Assembly (NCBI GenBank): GCA_003151115.1
Contig: PLWS01000002.1
Span: 878,570 to 935,833 of the forward strand
Length of the DNA stretch: 57,264 nt
Source of the DNA: Vulcanimicrobiota bacterium
Lineage (GTDB): Bacteria > Vulcanimicrobiota > Vulcanimicrobiia > Vulcanimicrobiales > Vulcanimicrobiaceae
Direction: 5' to 3'
In this document: one piece after another, positions 1-12,168 of the stretch
How positions within the stretch are numbered: position 1 is the first letter of the stretch
Layout of the letters: every line of letters begins with the position of its first letter
Program-made: the position numbers and the translations under genes
Notes under the pieces: model-generated
Database searches by the model: none
The model's input: only the letters and a program-made list of their open reading frames with translations
What the model was told of the DNA's origin: nothing

Positions 1-2322
1 CCGGAAGGCCCGAACATCGGGCTCATCGGCTCGCTCGCGACCTACGGCCGCGTCAACCGCTTCGGTTTCATCGAGACGCCGTACCGCGTCGCGCGTGAAG
101 GACAGGTCACCGACGAGATCGTCTACCTGACCGCCGATCGCGAAGACGAGTACATCATCGCGCAAGCCAATACGCCGCTCGACGAGCGGGGGCACATCAC
201 CTCGGAGTCGGTCGTCTGCCGTTACGCGGAAGAGTATATTGAAGAGCCCGCGTCGCGCGTGCAGCTGATGGACGTTTCGCCCAAACAGATCGTCTCGGTT
301 GCGACCGCGCTGATTCCGTTCCTCGAGCATGACGACGCGAACCGCGCCCTCATGGGTGCAAACATGCAGCGTCAGGCCGTGCCGCTGCTCCAGCCGCAAG
401 CGCCGATCGTCGGCACCGGCATGGAGTACCGCGCCGCCAAGGATTCGGGCTCGCTCATCGTCGCGGAAGAGCCGGGCGAAGTGACCGCGGTCGACTCCAA
501 GTCGGTCGTCGTCAAGAACGGCGAAGGCATCGAAAAAACGTACGACCTGCTGAAGTTCACGCGCAGCAACGCCGGCACGTGCATCAACCAGCGGCCGATC
601 GTGCTGCCGGGCGAACGCGTCACGACCGGCCAGATCTTGGCCGACGGCCCGTCGTCCGACGACGGCGAGCTGGCGTTGGGACAAAACGTCCTGGTCGGCT
701 TCATGCCGTGGGAAGGCTACAACTACGAGGACGCGATCCTGATCAGCGAACGCATGGTCAAGGACGATCGCTTCACGTCGATTCACATCGAAGAGTACGA
801 GTGCGAAGCGCGCGACACCAAGCTCGGCCCCGAAGAGATCACGCGCGACATTCCTAATGTCGGTGAAGATTCGCTCAAAGATCTCGACGAGCGCGGCATC
901 GTGCGCATCGGTGCAGAGGTGCGCCCCGAAGACATCCTCGTCGGCAAAGTTACGCCCAAGGGCGAGACCGAACTGACGGCGGAAGAGCGGCTGCTGCGCG
1001 CGATCTTCGGCGAGAAGTCGCGCGAAGTGCGCGACACGTCGCTCAAAGTTCCGCACGGCGAAAAAGGCAAGATCATCGACGTCAAAGTGTTCTCGCGAGA
1101 GAACGGCGACGAACTCTCGCCGGGCGTCAATCACTTGGTGCGCGTCTACGTCGCGCAGAAACGTAAGATTCTGCAAGGCGACAAGATGGCGGGGCGTCAC
1201 GGCAACAAGGGCGTGATCGCCAAAGTGCTGCCGGAAGAAGATATGCCGTATCTGGAAGACGGTACGCCGGTCGACATCGTGCTCAATCCGTTGGGCGTGC
1301 CTTCGCGCATGAACCTCGGACAGATCATGGAGACGCATTTGGGATGGGCGGCGCGCATGCTCGGCATGTACGTCTCCACTCCGGTCTTCGACGGCGCGCA
1401 CGCCGAAGACATTACCGAATGGCTGCAAGACGCGGGCTTGCCCGAAGACGGCAAGACGTGGCTGCGCGACGGCCGCACGGGCGACCGTTTCAGCCGGCCG
1501 ATTACCGTTGGCTACATCTATATGTTGAAACTCGCGCACTTGGTCGACGACAAGATTCACGCGCGTTCGACTGGCCCGTACTCGATGATCACGCAGCAGC
1601 CGCTGGGCGGCAAAGCACAATTCGGCGGGCAGCGCTTCGGCGAAATGGAAGTCTGGGCGCTCGAAGCCTACGGCGCGGCTTACACGCTGCAAGAGCTGCT
1701 GACGGTCAAGTCGGACGACGTCGTCGGACGCGTGAAAACCTACGAGGCGATCGTTAAGGGCGAGAACGTCATGGAACCGGGCGTGCCCGAGTCGTTCAAA
1801 GTCCTGATCAAGGAACTGCAGTCGCTCGCGCTCGACGTCAAGGTGCTGACCGAGAACCGCGAAGAGGTCGAAATCAAGATCGCGGACGACGACGTCGGCG
1901 AACGCGCGCAAGAGATCGGCTTGCTCATGGGCGACGAAGATCCGCGCATGACGCAGACGGCCGCAGCTCAGCGCGAGGCCGAGGCCCAGCGTGCCACCGT
2001 CGTGGCCGGCGAAGCCGAACCCGTTGAAGAGGAAGAGGAAGAGGAAGAGATCGACGATTCCAAACCGATCGTCAGCGGGCCGGTGGGCGGCGCCATGGCG
2101 ACCGCCGACGCCGATACGCAAGTGCCGGGCGCCCGGGCGATCGACGCGGCCGAGGAGCTCGAGCCCGAGGCAGCCGAGCCGGCGGCCGAAGAGGAAGACG
2201 AGGAGCAGGGCTACGTCCTAGAAGAGGAAGAGGAGCCTGCCGAGGAGCCGTCGTCTCCGTTCCCGCCGGCCGAGGACGACGCCGAGCCCTTCAGGGAGCA
2301 GCCGCCCGAAGAAGAGTTCTAG
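1..2322 (+). CDS. rpoB: RNA polymerase beta subunit, 3' part (5' end outside window)
   Basis: Beta subunit of DNA-directed RNA polymerase. The frame is open from base 1, and the first residues PEGPNIGLI correspond to the rifampicin-region segment near residue 565 of the E. coli protein, so roughly the first 560 residues are missing. Conserved signatures follow: [13 protein letters not shown] (bases 1177-1215) and [19 protein letters not shown] (about 1612-1668). The conserved body ends near KVLT at 1840-1851. The remaining 156 residues form a strongly acidic tail (runs of Glu around 2026-2050, 2187-2205 and 2221-2238, ending EEEF) that has no counterpart in E. coli RpoB and exceeds the shorter acidic tail of Bacillus. 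rpoC is not the next gene: a 6-kb insert separates the two. Identity is certain; the function of the tail is unknown. Confidence 0.98.
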
Positions 2323-2449
2323 GCCTGAGGCCCGTTCCTTAAAAAGGGATTAGAGTAGGCTGAGGAACCCGCCACGTAGGCAGGCCCCTTGGCCTTCCTA
2401 TTTTAGCGGCGCTATTTGCAAATCTGAAAGGGAAGCTCATGAGCTTTCC

Positions 2450-2971
2450 ATGGACACGCTGGCCACAGGTAATGCCGGAACGTTTAACTTCACGGCGTCG
2501 AGCACGCTGTCGAATCTGACGCCGTTGCCGGTGATTACTACGCCGACATTCGTCAAAGACGGCGTAGGCGGCGGTTCGGGAGTCGTTACCGTTCCGGTCG
2601 ACGCACGCGTCGTCGAAACGATGGTCTACTTCCAAAACACGACGCAAGGTACGTTCTTTGCGGTCGGCCCGATTCGCGGCACCGGCCCGCAAAACTACAC
2701 GTTGCCGGACTTCCTGGGACCCTGCACCGGAGCCGCGGGAACGGGATGCCAGAATAACGCAGCCACGCGTTCGCCTACGTTTAGACCTGGAGCTGGAGGA
2801 GCCGGGACGGGCGACAGCTTCATCGTCTACGCAGCGACGTACGACTATCCGATGTTCGAAGGTTCACAGCCGGGCAACGTTCAGCAATCACCCATGATCA
2901 ACGCCGGCGCGGCGACGAGCAATCAAGCGGATATCACGACGTCGATCGCATCGGTTTCGGCTAAATACTAG
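2450..2971 (+). CDS. hypothetical protein, possibly an exported protein that lost its start
   Basis: Unrecognised 173-residue protein rich in Thr, Gly, Ala and Asn, with two Cys (PCTGA and GCQNN, about residues 91-100). This composition resembles secreted or surface proteins, but no signal peptide is present at the predicted N-terminus. The ATG at 2450 is 17 bases from the only purine-rich Shine-Dalgarno candidate (AAAGGGA, 2427-2433). That site is correctly placed for an ATG at 2439, which lies in another frame and stops after about 25 codons. The 2450 frame is open upstream to 2354 with no ATG, GTG or TTG. The N-terminus may therefore be wrong, frameshifted or decayed. A perfect 17-bp hairpin follows the stop. 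No paralogue is visible in the window. Confidence 0.5.
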   Translation: MDTLATGNAGTFNFTASSTLSNLTPLPVITTPTFVKDGVGGGSGVVTVPVDARVVETMVYFQNTTQGTFFAVGPIRGTGPQNYTLPDFLGPCTGAAGTGCQNNAATRSPTFRPGAGGAGTGDSFIVYAATYDYPMFEGSQPGNVQQSPMINAGAATSNQADITTSIASVSAKY

Positions 2972-2987
2972 AGAGCCTAAAAGCTCA

Positions 2988-3027
2988 CAGTACGAAGGGC
3001 CCGGAGAAATCCGGGCCCTTCGTACTG
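2988..3027. terminator. 17-bp perfect inverted repeat, terminator-like hairpin
   Basis: Two arms, CAGTACGAAGGGCCCGG (2988-3004) and its exact reverse complement (3011-3027), enclose a 6-base loop AGAAAT. It lies 16 bases after the stop of the ORF at 2450-2971. There is no T-run on the + side (GGTAAGAG follows). On the - side the flank reads TGAGCTTTTAGG, so a - strand terminator or a bidirectional transcript-end structure is as likely. The structure is seen directly; the terminator role is inferred. Confidence 0.6.
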
Positions 3028-3036
3028 GGTAAGAGC

Positions 3037-3228
3037 ATGGCAATGCAACAAACGCTGCTGGTCATCCCGGAGGCAATCGAAGAAGAACGCCGCGTCGTGC
3101 TGCCGATTCGAGTAAGCGAGCGGCCACGCGATTATTTCGCGTCGGCATGTCTGCTTGCTTTCATGGGGTTTTTCTGGGTTCTCGTCTTCAGTTTGCGGTT
3201 TTTCGTGCAGAGTCACCATCTGCGCTAA
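3037..3228 (+). CDS. small single-pass membrane protein, hypothetical
   Basis: 63-residue protein starting MAMQQTLLV, with a charged, Glu/Arg-rich N-terminal half (about residues 11-31) followed by one hydrophobic segment (about 36-57, ACLLAFMGFFWVLVFSLRFF) and a short basic end. This is typical of a small membrane-anchored protein with the N-terminal half in the cytoplasm. No family is recognised. The start is only 10 bases after the strong hairpin at 2988-3027, and the ribosome site (GGTAAGAG) is weak. Its stop shares four bases (CTAA, 3225-3228) with the stop of the opposite-strand ORF 3225-3500. The same arrangement recurs at clearly real convergent pairs in this window, which supports both ORFs. 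Confidence 0.45.
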   Translation: MAMQQTLLVIPEAIEEERRVVLPIRVSERPRDYFASACLLAFMGFFWVLVFSLRFFVQSHHLR

Positions 3229-3500
3229 CGCGCAGAGGACTCCGCGCCGTTTTTATCCGAACCGACCTCGCCGTGGATGGCGCGGCTCGTGCGGCATGCA
3301 TCAGCGGTCAGCTCCTGAAGTTCGCGAATGTAAAAAGCGATCAGCCGGCGGTCGACGTCACGGCCGAGGTTCTCGTGGATGATCGCCTGCAGGTCGCGCT
3401 CCATTTGATCGACCGGCGGGGGCGCCGGTAAACGTGAATACGCCGCAGCGAGATCTTTAATGCTGCGCCAGACCCTATCGGGAGCGCCGGGACCGTCCAT
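3225..3500 (-). CDS. small hypothetical soluble protein
   Basis: 91 residues, no signal peptide or membrane segment. The central part (about residues 10-70) reads like a compact helical domain: WRSIKDLAAAYSRL, then QMERDLQAIIHENL, then RRLIAFYIRELQELTADACR. One Cys and several Arg/Glu pairs are spread along the helices. No family is recognised. It is the first - strand gene downstream of the 4489-3546 cluster but lies beyond the microprotein ORF. It is convergent with the small membrane protein at 3037-3228 through a shared 4-base stop overlap. The ORF is short, and reality rests on its coherent helical look and the tail-to-tail overlap. Confidence 0.45.
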   Translation of the reverse strand: MDGPGAPDRVWRSIKDLAAAYSRLPAPPPVDQMERDLQAIIHENLGRDVDRRLIAFYIRELQELTADACRTSRAIHGEVGSDKNGAESSAR

Positions 3501-3545
3501 TCATGGTCCTATGCCCACCGTTGGTACAAATGAAACGTAGCGCCG

Positions 3546-3644
3546 CTAGGCGCGACGATTCGACTCGGCTATGCCGCCCATGTACATTAGTACAGTGATC
3601 ACGACCCCGATGGCGGCGATGAGCCAAACGATGGTTGCATTCAT
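3546..3644 (-). CDS. 32-residue membrane microprotein candidate
   Basis: ATG at 3644-3642 opens a 32-codon frame ending TAG at 3548-3546. The product begins MNATIVWLIAAIGVVITVLM and ends YMGGIAESNRRA. It is a single clean hydrophobic helix (about residues 5-22) followed by a short polar, basic tail, as in known bacterial membrane microproteins. It lies 30 bases downstream of the lipoprotein gene (stop at 3675) on the same strand, so it could be the third gene of that unit. The ribosome site is poor (CCCCGAGTCC before ATG), which is the main reason for doubt. Confidence 0.4.
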   Translation of the reverse strand: MNATIVWLIAAIGVVITVLMYMGGIAESNRRA

Positions 3645-3674
3645 GGACTCGGGGTTAGCCGCCGGGGCTGGGTG

Positions 3675-4043
3675 TTACTGCGGGAGAGTGATGCGGTAGG
3701 CCGCGATCTTTCCGTCGGAATCGAACCGTACGATGACCGGAGCGGTGCCCTTATCGAAGTTCGCCCGGTACGTGTACTCGTTCTTCAGTCCGTTGTTGCT
3801 GACGTAGGTCAGCCCTTTGTAGTCGCCCATCTTATGGAGCTTGTCGGAAAGCAAGCCGACCTGCGCCCGGGTCACCTGTTTTTTGAGCGCGCCGTCGAAA
3901 TTTTGGGCCACTGCGGCGCCGTTGTTGTTGTAGACAGCCTTGGTCACGCCGTCGGCTTGGTTTTGGGCGTCGGAGGCCGGCGAGCTGCAGCCCGCCAGCG
4001 CGGCACCAAAAACCAAGCACGCGAGCGCACGCTTAGCGCGCAT
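3675..4043 (-). CDS. putative lipoprotein, NTF2-like/DUF3887-type fold possible
   Basis: 122 residues. The N-terminus MRAKRALACLVFGAALAGC is a lipoprotein signal with lipobox LAGC, acylated Cys19, so the mature protein is anchored to a membrane outside the cytoplasm. The mature part has a helix (AVAQNFDGALKKQVTRAQVG), then short beta stretches (YKGLTYVS, NEYTYRANF, TAPVIVRFDSDGKIAAYRI). That order is reminiscent of small cone-shaped NTF2-like domains such as DUF3887/DUF4019; this is a guess from pattern only. Its ATG overlaps the stop of the upstream gene (TAATG at 4041-4045), so the two are probably translated as a coupled pair. Confidence 0.75.
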   Translation of the reverse strand: MRAKRALACLVFGAALAGCSSPASDAQNQADGVTKAVYNNNGAAVAQNFDGALKKQVTRAQVGLLSDKLHKMGDYKGLTYVSNNGLKNEYTYRANFDKGTAPVIVRFDSDGKIAAYRITLPQ

Positions 4044-4489
4044 TAAACCTGGCCCCAGCCGTAGGAAACCATCGAGACTTGTTTCCCTGGACCGTAGCTG
4101 GCTGCCGCAACCCGCGTTGGCGGCTGACTGCCGAAGCCGCTCTGCATCGCAACCTGAAGCTGCTGCACGATCACCGAGTGCTGATACGCGACTTCACGCT
4201 TCAGATCCACGATCTCGGCGCGCGCGTTCGTGTAGGCGGTGCGTTCGCTGCTGTAGGCGGCCTGCATATTGCTGTTCTGGGATTCCAACGCCGCCTGCTG
4301 GCGCGCGTCTTCAGCGTACTTCTCGTGCACCTTGCGGTTGTGCTGAATGATCAAATAGGTCGCCAATCCGGCGCCCAGGAGTATGTTGCGCGTGCTTGCC
4401 GCGCCGTCGGCGAGTGCCGCTGAAGGAGCCGCGGCCGCCAGCATGGCCGCCATGGTCGTTCCGGCAATCGCTCTTTTCCATATCATCAT
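4043..4489 (-). CDS. signal-peptide protein with coiled coil, hypothetical
   Basis: Start chosen at ATG 4489 (MMIWKRAIAG...), preceded by AAAGGGAA at a workable distance. The frame is open 22 codons further upstream, but that extension lacks a leader-like sequence. The product of 148 residues has a cleavable signal peptide (about residues 1-27, ending PSAALADG). A weakly hydrophobic stretch follows (NILLGAGLATYLIIQ, about 35-49), then a long charged helix (about 50-110: HNRKVHEKYAEDARQQ onwards) predicted to be a coiled coil, then a Gly/Ser/Tyr-rich end (SYGPGKQVSMVSYGWGQV). It probably acts in the periplasm or at a membrane. No family is recognised. It forms a two-gene unit with the lipoprotein at 3675-4043. 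Confidence 0.65.
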   Translation of the reverse strand: MMIWKRAIAGTTMAAMLAAAAPSAALADGAASTRNILLGAGLATYLIIQHNRKVHEKYAEDARQQAALESQNSNMQAAYSSERTAYTNARAEIVDLKREVAYQHSVIVQQLQVAMQSGFGSQPPTRVAAASYGPGKQVSMVSYGWGQV

Positions 4490-4559
4490 GACGCTATTGT
4501 TCCCTTTCGCACGCCAATTACAGGCAGGCGGCTGCCAGCTGAGCGCAAATTCCACGGCC

Positions 4560-5261
4560 GTGGTTCACACGCAGGAGCTCATCTCGCACGACGACGGCGC
4601 GCAAACGACCCTCGAGCGCTGGGGCGATCGCGGGCCCGCGATTCTCGCCATTCACGGAATGACGGGTTCGCGCAAAGCGTGGGAGCAGCTGGCCGCTCAC
4701 TATGGCGGCGAGGCGCGCGTCTACGCCTACGACCAACGCGGCCACGGCGACGGACCTCCCGACGGTCCGATGACGCTCCACCGCTCCTTGCTCGATCTCT
4801 ACAACGTCATGTCTGCTATTCCCGAAGGCGTGGATACGCTGGTCGGTCATTCCTGGGGCGGCGCCATCGCAATACTCGGCGGCCGGCGCTTCGACTGCAG
4901 CCGCGTCATCGCGATCGATCCGATGGTCCGGCAGGGCGACGCAGCGTGGTACGATGCGTTTTTGCGCGACTTGAAAAAACAGAAACTTCCGAACAAAGCC
5001 ATTAAGAAACTGCGCGATGAAAATCCGCCGGCGACGTGGGATTTGCGCGGGGATCTCGAGCGCTATCCCAAGCCCTTACTCTTAGCGGTCGGCGAAGGCC
5101 CCGAAAGTCTGTTTTCGTTCGAGGATATGAAATTCGTGCGCGAACGCGGAGGCCCAAACGTGGCGCTGCGCGTGTTCGAAGGGCAGGGGCACAATTTGCA
5201 TCGCACCGATTTCGAATGCTTCACGCGCGAGTTCGATACGTTCCTGGCCCGTACGCCCTAA
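4560..5261 (+). CDS. alpha/beta hydrolase
   Basis: Serine hydrolase of the alpha/beta-hydrolase fold; substrate unknown. Seen: oxyanion-hole segment IHGMTGSRKAW (about residues 31-41 from the GTG start), YDQRGHGDG, nucleophile elbow VGHSWGG with Ser98, and the late histidine in GQGHNLHR (His211). The acid is probably around VGEGPESL. The frame runs upstream to 4383, but that part is antisense to the start of the 4489-4043 gene. GTG 4560 was chosen, with ATG 4488 as the alternative; neither has a good ribosome site. No secretion signal on the short form, so a cytoplasmic enzyme is likely. The 3' end overlaps the convergent pseudopilin gene by 41 bases. Confidence 0.8.
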   Translation: MVHTQELISHDDGAQTTLERWGDRGPAILAIHGMTGSRKAWEQLAAHYGGEARVYAYDQRGHGDGPPDGPMTLHRSLLDLYNVMSAIPEGVDTLVGHSWGGAIAILGGRRFDCSRVIAIDPMVRQGDAAWYDAFLRDLKKQKLPNKAIKKLRDENPPATWDLRGDLERYPKPLLLAVGEGPESLFSFEDMKFVRERGGPNVALRVFEGQGHNLHRTDFECFTREFDTFLARTP

Positions 5262-6267
5262 ACTCTAGGGAAGCGCTCTGCATCCCCGCTGTACCGGGCG
5301 GCGCAGCGGGCGTCCAATCGGAAGAACAGAGACGCATGTAGTCCGCAGCCGCCGCGGCCTCGCATGGCGGCAAAACGTCCCCGCCCGTAGGTCCGCTCAC
5401 GCCCGTGTCGGTGCGTTGCTGCGTATCGAATAGCGACCAGGTAAAGCCGCCGTCGGAGCTTTCATAGTAGCGCGACGTCGTCGTTTGCGACCAACGATAT
5501 TTGGGCCATTCGGCGATCGAACAGTCTGAATGAGACGGACAGTTCTCCCAGGTTCCGATCACCAGCGCTTTTACGATCGCTGCGGTCAAGCGGCTTGGCG
5601 GCGGGGTACCGGCCGGCGGCGGAGTGTAGCGCAGCACGATCGTGAAGCCGCTGGGTGCGGTTTGTGTTGAAAGCTGCAACTCGCACGCAGATAGCCCCGC
5701 GCGTATGCGCACGTAGGTGATCTGATTGCCGCCGGCAATCCACGGCTGCGCGGCGTCGAAGCGAACCTCAGCCGGATGGAGCGTGGCGCCGTCATATAAC
5801 GCGGAATAGATGAGCGAACCGGAATCTTGCAGCGCGCTTACCGGATACATGCCCGCGAAAAAATCATCGATGCCGGCAAGCGGAGCGCCGTCCGCAATTG
5901 CGGGCTCGCCGGACCGCGCGTAGAGGAGCCGCTGCACGGAGTGCTTGGCCTTGTCGTAACAGTAGGCCCAAAAATGGGCGCGATTCTGCGCGTCGCGCAA
6001 GAAGAAGTCCAACTCGTGTCCGTCGGCGTTAGGCGATCCGTAAGCGTCGTTCGGCGGTGTGAAGATCGCCCAAGCAGAATCTTCTTCGGCCTCTAGCCGT
6101 TCCGCAAGCGATCCGGTTGCCGATTCCGCGGTCCGCCGCGCCGCAAAAGACGCATTCCAGCGGAGAGCCGAAACGATCGCCGGGATGACCAAAAATCCGA
6201 TCGCGGTGACCAACGCGAGTGCGACAACGGTTTCCAGCAGCGTAAATCCGCGCTGCGAGCCTTTCAC
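5221..6267 (-). CDS. type IV pilin-like (pseudopilin) protein with large C-terminal domain
   Basis: 348 residues. The N-terminus MKGSQRGFTLLETVVALALV carries a class III prepilin signal: basic leader, Gly7/Phe8 cleavage point, Glu at mature position 5, then about 25 hydrophobic residues. It should be processed by a PilD-type peptidase and built into, or help prime, a type IV pilus or type II secretion pseudopilus. The rest (about residues 40-348) is a large extracytoplasmic domain with several Cys (ENCPSHSDC, LPPCEAAA, RLCSSD), longer than major pilins, as in minor pseudopilins PilW/GspJ/K. It stands alone here, divergent from the MFS gene and convergent with the hydrolase. Two further pilin-like genes lie at 50015-51194. 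Confidence 0.85.
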   Translation of the reverse strand: MKGSQRGFTLLETVVALALVTAIGFLVIPAIVSALRWNASFAARRTAESATGSLAERLEAEEDSAWAIFTPPNDAYGSPNADGHELDFFLRDAQNRAHFWAYCYDKAKHSVQRLLYARSGEPAIADGAPLAGIDDFFAGMYPVSALQDSGSLIYSALYDGATLHPAEVRFDAAQPWIAGGNQITYVRIRAGLSACELQLSTQTAPSGFTIVLRYTPPPAGTPPPSRLTAAIVKALVIGTWENCPSHSDCSIAEWPKYRWSQTTTSRYYESSDGGFTWSLFDTQQRTDTGVSGPTGGDVLPPCEAAAAADYMRLCSSDWTPAAPPGTAGMQSASLEFRAYGPGTYRTRA

Positions 6268-6311
6268 GTCATCAAAAAGTGCCCCTCATTCGGGCGCCGA
6301 AGGCCTGGAGA

Positions 6312-7838
6312 ATGTCGAGGTCCGTCGAAAAATCTCGGGGCGCGCTCGTGTTGGCGGCCGCGATCTTGGGCTCCGGAATGGCTTTACTCGACGCCACGGC
6401 GGTAAACGTTATCTTGCCGCTCGTGCAGCGCGATTTGCACGCAGGCGCGCAACTCGTGCAGTGGGTGGTTGAAGGCTACGCGCTTTTCTTATCGGCGTTG
6501 ATACTTGTGGGCGGCGCGCTCGGCGACGTCTACGGACGCCGCAAAATGTTCGTCGCGGGCGCGGCCCTTTTCGGTGTCGCGTCCATCGGCTGCGCGATGG
6601 CGCAAAATATCGAAGAAATGATTATCGCGCGCTGCATTCAGGGCATCGGCGCGGCGCTGCTCGTCCCCGAAAGCCTGGCGCTGATCAGCGCGCAGTTCGA
6701 TCCGCAGGCTCGTGGGAAGGCTATCGGAACGTGGGCCGCATTCTCCGCGATCAGCGGAGCTGTGGGGCCGGTTCTCGGCGGCGTCATCGCGCAGAATTTC
6801 TCGTGGCGTTGGGTCTTTCTGCTGAACGTTCCGATCGGCGCGATCGTGATCTTCATCTCGGCGCGCTGGATCCGTGAAAGCCGCGACGAGTCGGCGGGGC
6901 CGCATATCGATTTTGTGGGCGCGGCATTAGCGACTGCCGGGCTCGGCGGGCTCGTCTACGCGCTCATCGGTTTTCAGGGTGGTTACGACTCGGCCTCGCT
7001 GGTCATCGGCATCGTCTCACTGGTAGCGCTCGGCCTCTTTATTTTCTATGAAACTCGCGCGCGTTCGCCGATGATGCCGCTGCGTTACTTTCGCTCGCGC
7101 GATTTCTCGGGTGCCAACGCGTACACGTTTCTGTTGTACGCCGGGCTGGGCGGAAGTCTCTTTTTCGTACCGTTCGACCTGATCAACGTACAGCATTACA
7201 CGCCCGTGCAAGCCGGCGCGGCGATGCTGCCCATGACGACGATCCTTTTCTTGTTCTCGCGTTTCAGCGGCGGTTTGCAGACGCGCTTTGGTGCGCGTGC
7301 GATGCTTTCGGCGGGAGCTGCCGTCGCGGCGCTCGGGTTCGCGTTGTTCGCGATCGCCGGCGAAGGGAAAAGCTATTGGGCGTCATTCTTTCCGGCGTCG
7401 TTCGTTTTAGGAATCGGTGCGGCGCTCTTCGTGGCGCCGCTGACCGCAACCGTGATGAACTCGCTGGAGACCGCGCATGCCGGTGTAGCCTCGGGCGTGA
7501 ACAACGCGATTGCGCGCGCGGCCGGACTGATTGCCATCGCAGCGCTTGGGGTGGTGCTCAGCACGGTGTTCTATCGCACCTATGACGCACAGATCGGGCG
7601 GGCTCCGCTCGCCGCACAGTCGCGGCAGGCCCTGGCGCTTGACCGGGCGCGGCTGCTGACCGGATACGTCCCCGGGAATATCGCGCAGGCGGACCGGCCG
7701 ATCGTCCGGGCGATCGTCGACCGGTCCTTCGTCGGCGGGTTCGCATGGGCTATGGGTGTTTCGGCCGGGCTCGCGCTTTTGGCCGCCACGATTGCAAAAT
7801 TTTCGTTCGGTCGTCCGCGAGCGGCTAGCAGCCCCTGA
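6312..7838 (+). CDS. MFS drug exporter, DHA2 (EmrB/QacA) type
   Basis: 508-residue inner-membrane proton antiporter of the 14-helix DHA2 family. Seen: LDATAVNVILPLVQRDL in the first helix (the family's D-x-T-(I/V)-V-N-V-A-L-P region), GALGDVYGRRKMF (motif A between helices 2 and 3), and GIGAALLVPESLALIS followed by GAVGPVLGGVIAQ (motif C). Arrays of hydrophobic helices continue to the end. Start set at ATG 6312 because GAAGG (6299-6303) sits 8 bases before it. An in-frame GTG at 6279 has no ribosome site. Substrate cannot be told. It is transcribed away from the pseudopilin gene and followed after about 56 bases by a STAS gene. Confidence 0.9.
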   Translation: MSRSVEKSRGALVLAAAILGSGMALLDATAVNVILPLVQRDLHAGAQLVQWVVEGYALFLSALILVGGALGDVYGRRKMFVAGAALFGVASIGCAMAQNIEEMIIARCIQGIGAALLVPESLALISAQFDPQARGKAIGTWAAFSAISGAVGPVLGGVIAQNFSWRWVFLLNVPIGAIVIFISARWIRESRDESAGPHIDFVGAALATAGLGGLVYALIGFQGGYDSASLVIGIVSLVALGLFIFYETRARSPMMPLRYFRSRDFSGANAYTFLLYAGLGGSLFFVPFDLINVQHYTPVQAGAAMLPMTTILFLFSRFSGGLQTRFGARAMLSAGAAVAALGFALFAIAGEGKSYWASFFPASFVLGIGAALFVAPLTATVMNSLETAHAGVASGVNNAIARAAGLIAIAALGVVLSTVFYRTYDAQIGRAPLAAQSRQALALDRARLLTGYVPGNIAQADRPIVRAIVDRSFVGGFAWAMGVSAGLALLAATIAKFSFGRPRAASSP

Positions 7839-7894
7839 CCCGGCATGCTAACGTTAATAACGGCGCGGCTGCTTTGCAGCCGGGCGACTTTACA

Positions 7895-8218
7895 ATGCCG
7901 GATGCAAAAACGCGGGTTATCTTCATGGACGGCGATTGGGATATCGGCCGCCGAGACGAGCTCGAGCTGCTCCTGAAGCCGGTCTACGATTCCCCGGGCA
8001 GCCTGATCCTCGACATGCACGCCGTGAGCTACGCCGACAGCACGATCCTGGCGGCCCTGATCGTCCTTCGAAACCGGCGGCGCAGTAAGGGACTGCCGCT
8101 GCCGAATCTGGTCATCGGCTCGCGTCAGGTGCGACGGCTCCTCAGCATAGCGGGCCTGGGGGAGGCATTCCCGGTCTTCGAGAGCCTCGATGCGGCCAAC
8201 GACTCCTTGACCCCCTAG
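7895..8218 (+). CDS. STAS-domain protein, anti-sigma factor antagonist type
   Basis: 107 residues (from ATG 7895; an in-frame TTG at 7874 would add seven). One STAS domain of the SpoIIAA/RsbV class: a central beta strand SLILDMHAV followed by SYADSTILAALIVLRNRRR. Ser49 in the ADST turn occupies the position phosphorylated by anti-sigma kinases in this family. The C-terminal helix pattern RQVRRLLSIAGLGEAFPVF is also typical. By family precedent it would bind a cognate switch kinase and release a sigma factor or another partner. No kinase or sigma gene lies nearby, so the partner is unknown. The rpoC promoter begins just inside its last codons. Confidence 0.85.
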   Translation: MPDAKTRVIFMDGDWDIGRRDELELLLKPVYDSPGSLILDMHAVSYADSTILAALIVLRNRRRSKGLPLPNLVIGSRQVRRLLSIAGLGEAFPVFESLDAANDSLTP

Positions 8219-8235
8219 ACGCCCAGCCGTATAAT
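8207..8235 (+). promoter_or_regulatory. near-consensus sigma-70 type promoter of rpoC
   Basis: -35 TTGACC (8207-8212) and -10 TATAAT (8230-8235) are separated by 17 bases, the ideal spacing. The expected start of transcription is about 8242, giving a leader of about 108 bases before the rpoC TTG at 8350. The -35 box overlaps the last codons of the STAS gene. It supplies rpoC with transcription independent of rpoB, from which it is separated by 6 kb. Confidence 0.75.
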
Positions 8236-8349
8236 GACCGTCTGTGCCCGCCCTTGGCGGCCAGCGGCAACGGTGGGACTCCTTACGCGACCACGTGAGA
8301 CGAGCGCCCTGCGTCAGCCCGGCCAACGCGCGACGGCCCCGGAGAATCC

Positions 8350-11300
8350 TTGAACCTCATAGACGTCAATAATTTCGATGCGATGCGAATCGGTTTGGCA
8401 TCGCCCGAGCAGATTCGCGCGTGGTCGTTCGGCGAAGTCAAGAAGCCCGAAACGATCAACTACCGTACGCTCAAGCCCGAGCGCGACGGTTTGTTCTGCG
8501 AGAAGATTTTCGGGCCCACCAAAGACTGGGAATGCCACTGCGGCAAGTACAAGCGGATCCGTTTCAAGGGCATGATCTGCGACCGCTGCGGCGTTGAGAT
8601 CACGCGCGCAAAAGTGCGCCGCGAACGCATGGGGCACATTGAATTGGCGACTCCGGTCAGCCACATCTGGTATTTCAAGGGCGTTCCCAGCCGCATCGGC
8701 ATTCTACTCGACATGTCGCCGCGCCAGCTTGAAAAAGTCATCTACTTTGCGGCCTACGTGGTTATCGACGCGGGCAGCACGCCGCTGCAGAAGCGTGAAG
8801 TCCTCACGGAGCAAAAATACCGCGAGTATCGCGAAAAATACGGCACCGCGTTCAAAGCCGGCATGGGAGCCGAGGCGATCCGCGAGCTGCTGCGCGATCT
8901 GAATTTGCGCAAGCTCCAGGAAGAACTGCGCAGTGAATTCCAAACGACGAGCGGACAGAAACGTCTCAAAGCGATCAAACGTCTCGAAGTCGTCGAAGCG
9001 TTCATCAACAGCGGCAATAAACCCGAGTGGATGATTTTGTCGGCCGTTCCGGTCATCGCGCCGGAGCTGCGTCCCATGGTCCAGCTCGACGGCGGCCGCT
9101 TCGCGACTTCGGATTTGAACGATCTCTACCGCCGCGTGATCAATCGCAACAACCGCCTCAAGCGGCTGCTGGAGCTTTCCGCGCCCGAGATCATCATTAA
9201 GAACGAGAAGCGCATGCTGCAAGAAGCAGTCGACGCGCTGATCGACAACGGTCGCCGCGGGCGTCCTGTCACCGGGCCCAACAACCGTCCGCTGAAGTCT
9301 CTTTCGGACATATTAAAAGGAAAGCAAGGCCGCTTCCGGCAGAACTTGCTCGGAAAACGCGTCGACTATTCGGGCCGTTCGGTCATCGTCGTCGGTCCCA
9401 CGCTCAAACTGCACCAGTGCGGTCTGCCCAAAGAGATGGCGCTCGAGCTCTTCAAGCCGTTCGTCATGAAGAAACTGGTCGACCGCGGTCAGGCGCACAA
9501 CATCAAGAGCGCGAAGCGTATGGTCGAACGCGTGCGGCCGGAAGTCTGGGACGTCCTGGACGAGGTCATCCGCGAACATCCGGTGCTGTTGAACCGCGCC
9601 CCCACGCTTCACCGTTTGGGCATCCAAGCGTTCGAGCCGGTGCTGGTTGAAGGCAAGGCCATTCATCTGCATCCTCTGGTCTGTACGCCGTACAACGCTG
9701 ATTTCGACGGCGACCAGATGGCGGTGCATTTGCCGCTTTCGGCAGGCGCACAAGCCGAAGCGCGCATCTTGATGCTCTCCTCGAACAACATCTTGCTGCC
9801 GGCGTACGGCAATCCGGTCTCCATCCCGACCCAAGATATGGTTCTCGGGCTGTACTACCTCACGTTTCACCGCGACGAATACGTGGGGCCGGCCAAAGCC
9901 GCCATCGCCGACGATTACGATGCGAAGGTCGAGCGCGAGGACAGCGTTTCGCGCAGCAACGGCAAGCGCAAGAAGGTCAAAGGCGAGGACGAGAACGCGC
10001 CCGCGCGCATGCACTCGTTCAGCAGCCCCGACGAAGCGATTATGGCGCACGAAACGCGTCACGTCGCGCTGCAGGAGTGGATCAACGTCCGCTGGCGCGG
10101 GGAACTGATCCGCACGACCGTCGGGCGCGTTATTTTCAACAACGCTTTCCCCGAGAATTGGAACCACCCGTACGTCAATAACATTTTCGACAAGAGCGCG
10201 CTCAAGAAGCTGATCACGGACTGTTACCGCAAGTACGGGAACGCCGAGACGGCAAAATTCCTGGACGCGATCAAAGACCTTGGCTTCCACTATGCGACGC
10301 AGTCGGGCACGACCGTTTCGATCACCGACATCATCTTGCCCGAGGCCAAGTACGAAATCTTGAACAAGGCGCAGGGTGAAGTCGACGAACAGCACCGCCT
10401 GTACGACCAAGGCTTCATCTCGCAGGACGAGCAGTACACCAAGACGATCGACATCTGGGCGAAGGCCAGCGACGACGTCAGCGACGCGATGCAGAGCGCG
10501 TTCAGTCCGCTCAACCCGGTCTTCATGATGGCGACCTCCGGTGCGCGCGGTTCGATCGCGCAGGTCAAACAGCTGGGCGGCATGCGTGGACTGATGTCCG
10601 ATCCCTCGGGGCGGATTTTGGAGATTCCCGTCAAGGCGTCGCTCAAAGAGGGCCTGACCGTTCTGGAGTACTTCATCTCGACGCACGGCGCGCGTAAAGG
10701 CTTGGCCGACACCGCGCTGCGTACGGCGGACTCGGGCTACTTGACGCGCCGTCTGGTCGACGTCGCGCAGGACGTCATCATCCGCGAAGAAGATTGCGGA
10801 ACGTCCAACGGCATCGTCGTCTCCGACATCGCGGCGGGCAAAGAGATCATCGAGCCGCTCGGCGACCGCATCATCGGGCGCCGCGCTGCCGAAGACATCA
10901 AAGAAGGCCGCACGGTCGTGGTCAAACGCGACAGCGAGATCGACGAAGAGAAGGTCAAGACGATTCTCGAAAACGGCATCAAGAGCGTCAAGATCCGTTC
11001 CGTGCTCACGTGCAAAGCGAAGTACGGCGTCTGCTCGATGTGCTACGGCCGCAACCTTGCGACCGGCAACAAAGTCGATATCGGCGAAGCGGTGGGCATC
11101 ATCGCGGCGCAATCGATCGGCGAGCCGGGCACGCAGCTCACGCTGCGCACGTTCCACACGGGCGGCGTGGCCACCGAAGACATCATCACGGGTCTTCCGC
11201 GTGTCGAGGAAATCTTCGAAGCGCGCAAGCCGAAAGGCCAAGGCACCATCGCCGAGCACAACGGCAAGGTCAAATTCGGCGAAGAGAAAAACCGCCGCGT

Positions 11301-12168
11301 GGTCTTTATCGTCGATGAGGTCGGCGAGGAGCACGAGTACGACATCGCGCACGGCATGCATTTGCTCGTGCATGAAGGCGACAAAGTCTCCGTGGGCGAT
11401 CAGCTCAGCGAAGGCTCGCTCAATCCGCACGATATTTTGCGGGTCAAAGGCGAGACCGCGCTCCATAACTACCTGGTGGAAGAAGTTCAGAAAGTCTACC
11501 GTTCGCAGGGCGTCGACATCAACGACAAACACATCGAGGTCATCGTGCGTTCGATGCTGCGCAAGGTCAAAGTGCGCGACGGCGGCGACACGCAGATGCT
11601 TCCGGGCCAATTGGTCGAGTTCGCGAACTTCATCGAGCAGAACGAGCGTCTGGGATCGGGCGACCAAAAGGCGACCGCAGATCCGGTGCTGCTCGGCGTG
11701 ACGAAGGCATCGCTCGCCACGGAATCGTTCCTGTCGGCGGCGTCATTCCAAGAAACGACGCGCGTGCTGACCGACGCAGCGATCAAGGGCAAACACGATC
11801 CGCTGCTGGGCCTGAAAGAGAACGTCATCATCGGCAAGCTGATTCCGGCGGGCACGGGGATGTCGCGCTACCGCAACATCAAGATCGAGCCCGAAGGCCA
11901 GGATCTCGATGACGACGGACGTCCGCGCAATCAGTTCGAGGCTTCGGTCTACGACACGATGAGCGCCGACGATGCGGCATTGGCCGAAGTCATGGCTGCA
12001 AGCGGAGACGGCATGCAGAAACTCGTGAGCGCATACGATCGCACCCGCGAACCCGCGACCGTGCAATACGAAGGCGAATACGCAGATCACACCGCAGTGC
12101 ACGCGCCGCCGAAAAAGACGCAGTACGATAAGTCCGGCTTCAAGGGCATCAACCCCGACGATCTGTAA
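8350..12168 (+). CDS. rpoC: RNA polymerase beta' subunit
   Basis: Beta' subunit, 1272 residues, complete. Seen in order: N-terminal zinc site ([11 protein letters not shown]... [11 protein letters not shown], about residues 58-83), the catalytic [12 protein letters not shown] loop whose three Asp hold Mg2+ (about bases 9700-9732), GARGS at the start of the bridge-helix region (about 10540-10554), and a second zinc site [18 protein letters not shown] (about 11005-11060). [21 protein letters not shown] follows, and [21 protein letters not shown] lies near the C-terminus. Start is TTG 8350, fixed by GGAG (8341-8344) five bases upstream and by alignment to the usual N-terminus. It has its own promoter at 8207-8235. 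It is shorter than the E. coli subunit (1407), consistent with absence of the large lineage-specific insertion. Confidence 0.99.

Follow-up and report, generated by a model that had tools for sequence, protein, structure and literature searches.

Few bacterial gene orders are as well conserved as the adjacency of rpoB and rpoC, the genes for the β and β' subunits of RNA polymerase, for which the usual explanation is that the two subunits are required in equal amounts. A described departure is that of Synechocystis PCC 6803, where, according to PMC6037674, rpoC1 stands apart from rpoC2-rpoB. The subject of the present analysis is a stretch of 57,264 nucleotides (hereafter, the window) from a Vulcanimicrobiota bacterium of the family Vulcanimicrobiaceae (assembly GCA_003151115.1, contig PLWS01000002.1, positions 878,570 to 935,833, forward strand), in which rpoB ends at position 2322 and rpoC starts at position 8350. 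The gap of 6027 nucleotides holds about nine open reading frames (ORFs) on both strands, an organization different from that of an adjacent operon, and the rpoC gene following it encodes the sole RpoC N-terminal domain of the genome. A preliminary description of this DNA had reported an insert of about 6 kb splitting the two genes, with minus-strand genes at 3225-4489 and 5221-6267, and our gene calls agree with it on both counts. The best overall explanation of the data presented below, and one that we consider probable, is that rpoB and rpoC are transcribed as separate units, both in the genome of the window and in nearly all members of the family, with twin promoters and fine tuning by their leaders.

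Gene order was compared across 149 genomes of the phylum, which were searched with the RpoB C-terminal and RpoC N-terminal domains; about 80 neighborhoods were fetched and their genes called. In the family of the window (38 genera), rpoB and rpoC lie apart in nearly every genome having both, at 1-29 kb from each other or unlinked. Most of the gaps measure 2-10 kb, with 1.07 kb in genus g12 and 16-29 kb in genus g37. In other members the genes are unlinked: they are 422 kb apart and on opposite strands in G051, on opposite strands of a single 2.79-Mb contig and at least 400 kb apart in G042, and on separate long contigs in G077 and G116. In outgroup families of the order, the class and the phylum, rpoB and rpoC are adjacent, with gaps of -1 to 122 nucleotides (6 nucleotides in f2, the other family of the same order). 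The preliminary description had taken this adjacency to be near-universal, and every one of the 78 loci from other bacteria (mostly Bacillota) among the matches listed shows it. In a tree of RpoC proteins, the family of the window forms one group, composed of clade A and clade B (to which the window belongs), with the adjacent-gene families outside. The comparison hence identifies the split as a family-wide trait set against adjacent outgroups. At least one minus-strand gene is found within the interval in 29 of the 30 linked maps, the exception being G108. Because of these intervening opposite-strand genes, and of the unlinked genes in several genomes, a single transcript running from rpoB to rpoC is very unlikely, in line with what had been argued for the window.

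The window itself contains zero N bases. An NN gap is present in the contig directly before window position 1, inside rpoB, and leaves the rpoB-rpoC interval untouched; a frameshift in the rpoB of this genome was considered and rejected, since the apparent disruption is the scaffold gap only. The identical gene order is found without N bases in two independent genomes of the genus (G101 and G103), and therefore neither boundary of the interval is a contig-joining error, a caveat that the preliminary description had raised.

A predicted promoter precedes rpoC at 8207-8235 on the plus strand, combining TTGACC (8207-8212) and TATAAT (8230-8235) across a 17-nucleotide spacer. It matches 11 of the 12 positions of the sigma-70 -35 and -10 hexamers, with a spacing inside the 16-18 nucleotide range. 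No other site in 14 kb reaches 11 of 12, and weaker matches occur at chance level (4 found versus 2.8 expected). The own, near-consensus promoter of rpoC that had been noticed in the window is therefore upheld, and it is conserved through the family. The -10 hexamer is also the beginning of a longer pattern, TANNNT-N6-CTRTGCCC, which we term the twin start element (TATAATGACCGTCTGTGCCC; 8230-8249, plus strand), with a predicted transcription start at about 8240-8242. Across the 2.56-Mb genome of the window this pattern presents exactly two matches, one at rpoC (C6:886799, equivalent to 8230-8249) and one at rpoB (G000:C6:876838), where rpoB has its own promoter and leader outside the window; a reversed control of the pattern yields zero matches in the same genome. 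The layout of a -35 box, about 17 nucleotides, TANNNT, six nucleotides and CTRTGCCC is common to all rpoC genes of the family and to the rpoB genes of both this family and f2. Exactly two matches, at rpoB and rpoC, were likewise obtained in eleven further genomes. In f2, where the two genes are adjacent, the sole match is at rpoB in three genomes, and a fourth (G030) has one extra match elsewhere; several genomes of f3 also have the element at rpoB. Allowing for up to two mismatches, the element is found before 53 of 53 rpoC starts in the family, versus 0 of 9 outgroup rpoC starts. Its presence at outgroup rpoB, but not at outgroup rpoC, indicates that the rpoB copy is the older one and that the rpoC copy arose newly in this family, where it probably descends from the rpoB element. 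Since the element stands at rpoB and rpoC and nowhere else in the genome, a single signal most likely acts on both promoters.

The leaders that follow these promoters carry further conserved features. A hairpin followed by a T-run is present near +70 in 35 of 40 rpoB leaders, with a mean z score of -2.7 for the preceding stretch in a per-leader test. Located between promoter and start codon, the hairpin and U-run would form an attenuator resembling an intrinsic terminator. RNAalifold did not recover the hairpin, owing to the poor alignment of the rpoB leaders in that region, and a stricter terminator search likewise missed it. In rpoB leaders, the CTRTGCCC stretch folds into a small 5' hairpin (GCC..GGC), and a start-like string resembling this stretch (TTTTTGGTGTGCCC) recurs after the T-run in many of them. 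Palindromic repeats of the type CCTTCGACAGGCTCAGGGTGAC occur within several rpoB or rpoC leaders, a case of tolerated insertions similar to repetitive extragenic palindromic sequences.

Upstream of rpoC, the leader of the window contains a conserved and structured RNA core, designated R1 (8264-8319, plus strand), of the form GCRACGGTGGG..CTTACG-loop-CGTGAG..CCCTGCGTMAGC. Pairing is preserved in 97.4% of the pair cells in an alignment of 30 sequences, and 5 of the 14 pairs have changed on both sides, versus 0.9 in shuffled alignments, with 0 of 500 shuffles scoring as high; R1 thus presents a conserved structure with compensatory changes, and its internal loop has invariant residues. With a covariance model of R1, about 53 clade-B genomes each gave a single strong match, located before rpoC; about 15 of these genomes were outside the set used to build the model. 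Convincing matches of this model other than before rpoC were not found, and the position of R1, ahead of one and the same gene, is hence constant between species. It is missing in clade A and in genera g21 and g22, which retain the twin element. A search of the rpoC leader against Rfam gave no match up to an E value of 10, and the rpoB leader obtained chance-level matches only; a known RNA family was therefore rejected for both, no Rfam match going beyond chance. The rpoC leader of the window (8242-8349) has no T-run and hence does not have the makeup of a terminator-type attenuator. In clade A, rpoC leaders begin much like their rpoB counterparts (CTATGCCCYTCGGCSGATA), and several have a similar hairpin and T-run. 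The conservation of an RNA leader at rpoC in most of the family suggests how the two subunits may stay in step.

A possible intermediate in the history of the split is found in clade A. In G129, rpoB is followed by 194 nucleotides holding the twin element and then by rpoC, contiguously and without N bases. The first 19.5 kb of the G129 scaffold are 96-99.8% identical to G119 and NN-joined inside the rpo genes (L123 1-3984, L170); a second rpoB fragment in this genome was rejected as contamination from a G119-like species, and only the part after the chimeric joint was used. In G059, a relative of G129, a toxin gene pair lies between rpoB and the same promoter, consisting of a MazF/PemK-like toxin gene and a probable antitoxin gene (L120 2209-2858, minus strand). 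The simplest reading of these arrangements is that the promoter came first: rpoC would have received a promoter and leader of the rpoB type at a time when it still lay next to rpoB, and the operon would then have broken several times.

The explanation based on separate units with twin promoters can be laid out as a series of conditional steps. In the ancestor of the family, rpoC would have acquired a promoter and leader of the rpoB type, with -35 and -10 boxes followed by CTRTGCCC at fixed spacing, and this ancestral leader probably also bore a terminator-like hairpin at first. Having its own promoter would have freed rpoC from rpoB transcription, and with that independence later rearrangements could have separated the two genes, either by inserting resident genes between them or by parting the pair fully. 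Through the shared start element, the rpoB and rpoC promoters would follow a common signal, with fine tuning left to the leaders, that is, to an attenuating hairpin ahead of rpoB and, in the clade of the window, to R1 ahead of rpoC. Located 30 nucleotides before the rpoC start codon, R1 probably controls rpoC translation or the fate of its mRNA. The preliminary description had reasoned that the balance of β and β' must be arranged in another way, and the start element shared by rpoB and rpoC and the conserved leader RNAs now supply candidates for it. The separation, the own promoter, the twin element, the conserved R1 and the hairpins are established at the level of sequence; co-regulation of the two genes through the shared element and leaders, as well as a ligand for R1, is what we infer from them.

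Several observations weigh against this explanation. The G129 intermediate comes from one scaffold, the other half of which is contamination. The shared element is short, extending 8 nucleotides past the -10 hexamer, and might serve, not as a regulator site, but as a 5'-stabilizing hairpin or as a determinant of initiation rate. In the clade of the window, the rpoB and rpoC leaders diverge after their first 8 nucleotides, and R1 is present only before rpoC. Helix 1 is for the most part invariant, which keeps the covariation in R1 modest, and the single-sequence fold of the window rpoC leader is not unusually stable (z score of +1.7), which makes the evidence for R1 comparative. Lastly, the intervening genes of G108 are all on the plus strand, and read-through from rpoB would be possible there.

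Beyond separate units with twin promoters, it is possible, and we put it forward as a tentative proposal, that a two-gene regulon has replaced operon coupling, in which identical start elements confined to rpoB and rpoC, together with a leader RNA specific to each gene, R1 sensing free β' or core polymerase, would keep the subunits balanced by autoregulation at the RNA level. It is also conceivable, if rather doubtful, that the two genes are transcribed separately without any co-regulation, from two housekeeping promoters of similar strength, the balance being attained through assembly and proteolysis of the excess subunit; CTRTGCCC would then be only a favorable initial transcribed sequence or an mRNA-stabilizing 5' stem-loop. 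Both promoters are indeed of the ordinary sigma-70 type, the small hairpin of the rpoB leaders fits such a stem-loop, and a free-standing rpoC1 is viable in Synechocystis, according to PMC6037674. A generally favorable start would, however, be expected at other strong promoters, and the element is confined to these two; moreover, the conservation of R1 far exceeds the needs of a passive leader. We regard as unlikely that R1 acts alone, as an autogenous rpoC leader responding to β', core RNA polymerase or another ligand and matching β' to β, with the start element as a leftover. Being single-copy, always before rpoC, structured and endowed with invariant internal-loop residues, R1 would suit that role, but clade A, g21 and g22 lack it and yet keep the twin element. 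Persistent read-through from rpoB into rpoC, with the rpoC promoter merely adding to it, is highly improbable: no strong terminator was found directly after rpoB in the window, which would favor it together with the plus-strand genes of G108, but the opposite-strand genes of nearly all linked maps and the unlinked genera stand against it. An assembly artefact or a recent insertion in one strain, which the NN gap inside rpoB and the chimeric locus of G129 might bring to mind, is refuted for practical purposes by the many independent genomes that share the arrangement, including G042 on its single contig and G118, where rpoB and rpoC lie 29 kb apart on a single 3.5-Mb contig.

Within the window, the 3' part of rpoB (1-2322, plus strand) is an intact frame of the C-terminal 773 codons, its 5' part lying outside; the encoded tail is long and acidic, with runs of E and D (about 1860-2322). 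The RpoB of genus g12, with about 1463 amino acids, is about 200 residues longer than that of the window. An ORF of unassigned function (2450-2971, plus strand) is present in five genomes of the genus, encodes 377 amino acids in G103 and is probably a remnant here. In sister species, represented by three loci, a gene of about 1115 amino acids (cluster 43) that the window lacks follows rpoB, and this absence, together with the remnant-like ORF of its longer neighbor, points to ongoing change of the interval within the genus. A near-perfect 13-bp inverted repeat without a T-run (ACGAAGGGCCCGG-loop-CCGGGCCCTTCGT; 2996-3027) sits between this ORF and the minus-strand genes. These begin with a small ORF kept within the genus (3225-3404, minus strand; frame open to 3500), followed by c2, a lipoprotein-like gene with a weak DUF3887 match (3675-4043, minus strand) located in antisense orientation in the rpoB-rpoC interval of most genera of clade B, and by its partner c3, encoding a secreted or coiled-coil protein (4043-4489, minus strand). 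Further on are an alpha/beta hydrolase gene (about 4560-5261, plus strand; start placed from relatives), a gene with a type IV pilin-like N-methylation motif (5221-6267, minus strand; N_methyl 20.8 bits, slightly below cut-off), a major facilitator superfamily transporter gene assigned by domain match (6348-7838, plus strand) and a STAS-domain protein gene (7895-8218, plus strand), the final codons of which contain the -35 box of the rpoC promoter. A Shine-Dalgarno-like GGAG (8341-8344, plus strand) is located ahead of rpoC (8350-12168, plus strand), an intact frame of 1272 codons with a TTG start.

In clade B, the minimal content of the gap is the minus-strand pair c2 and c3, as seen in the 1.07-kb interval of g12. 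Orthologs of c3 are located elsewhere in the genomes of f2, f3 and clade A; a foreign origin was consequently rejected for c3, the search having covered c3 only, and c3 at least appears to be a relocated resident gene. The gaps of other genera also hold 3-hydroxyisobutyrate-dehydrogenase-like and F420-dependent-oxidoreductase-like genes, hydrolases and further genes. Around rpoB and rpoC, rpsL-rpsG-fusA-like genes follow rpoC in f3 and not in f2 or the family of the window, according to the loci compared, and many genomes of the latter have minus-strand genes immediately before rpoB; the larger rplJL-rpoBC-str cluster was apparently dismantled in steps.

A family that has abandoned rpoBC adjacency, and in which both the outgroups and a likely promoter-first intermediate are still visible, constitutes a natural test of the reasons for which operons persist and of the way in which they dissolve; as for subunit balance, the start element common to the two genes and the new RNA motif each offer a specific candidate that can be put to the test. 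The G118 genome, a member of the family, is one contig of 3,508,363 bases with two reaction-centre subunits, and the genome of Vulcanimicrobium alpinum WC8-2 is described as gap-free, 3.50 Mb in size and carrying puf genes (PMC9758169); if the two are the same, a cultivated strain is usable for such work. The main text of that paper does not mention rpoC, and in the open-access literature we found no report of an rpoB-rpoC split in this phylum, nor of a split extending through a whole family, of a start element restricted to these two genes or of a structured RNA upstream of rpoC.

Among known systems, the Lacto-rpoB RNA motif (RF01709) is likewise a candidate structured RNA at a gene of the RNA polymerase core, although, according to PMC2864571, it is associated with rpoB in Lactobacillales, whereas the leaders described here match no Rfam family. 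The Pelagibacter rpsL motif (PMC2704228) adjoins rpoC, as R1 does, but lies downstream of it, before rpsL, and R1 lies upstream. That a very conserved cluster can be altered, as here, is also illustrated by the rearranged secE-rpoBC-str cluster of Gammaproteobacteria and Bacilli, where the example in the accessible text of PMC8046335 is the loss of rplJL from the operon and a split of rpoB from rpoC was not found. Synechocystis resembles the present family in having a core subunit gene outside the operon and transcribed alone; its β' gene is in two pieces, and the accessible text of PMC6037674 describes neither a shared start element nor a leader RNA. Another close comparison is the canonical rpoBC (β) operon, which the outgroups of the phylum retain and with which most linked members of the family share the same two genes, their order and their orientation, but from which they differ in a family-wide split, in the opposite-strand genes standing between the pair and in a separate promoter and leader for each gene.

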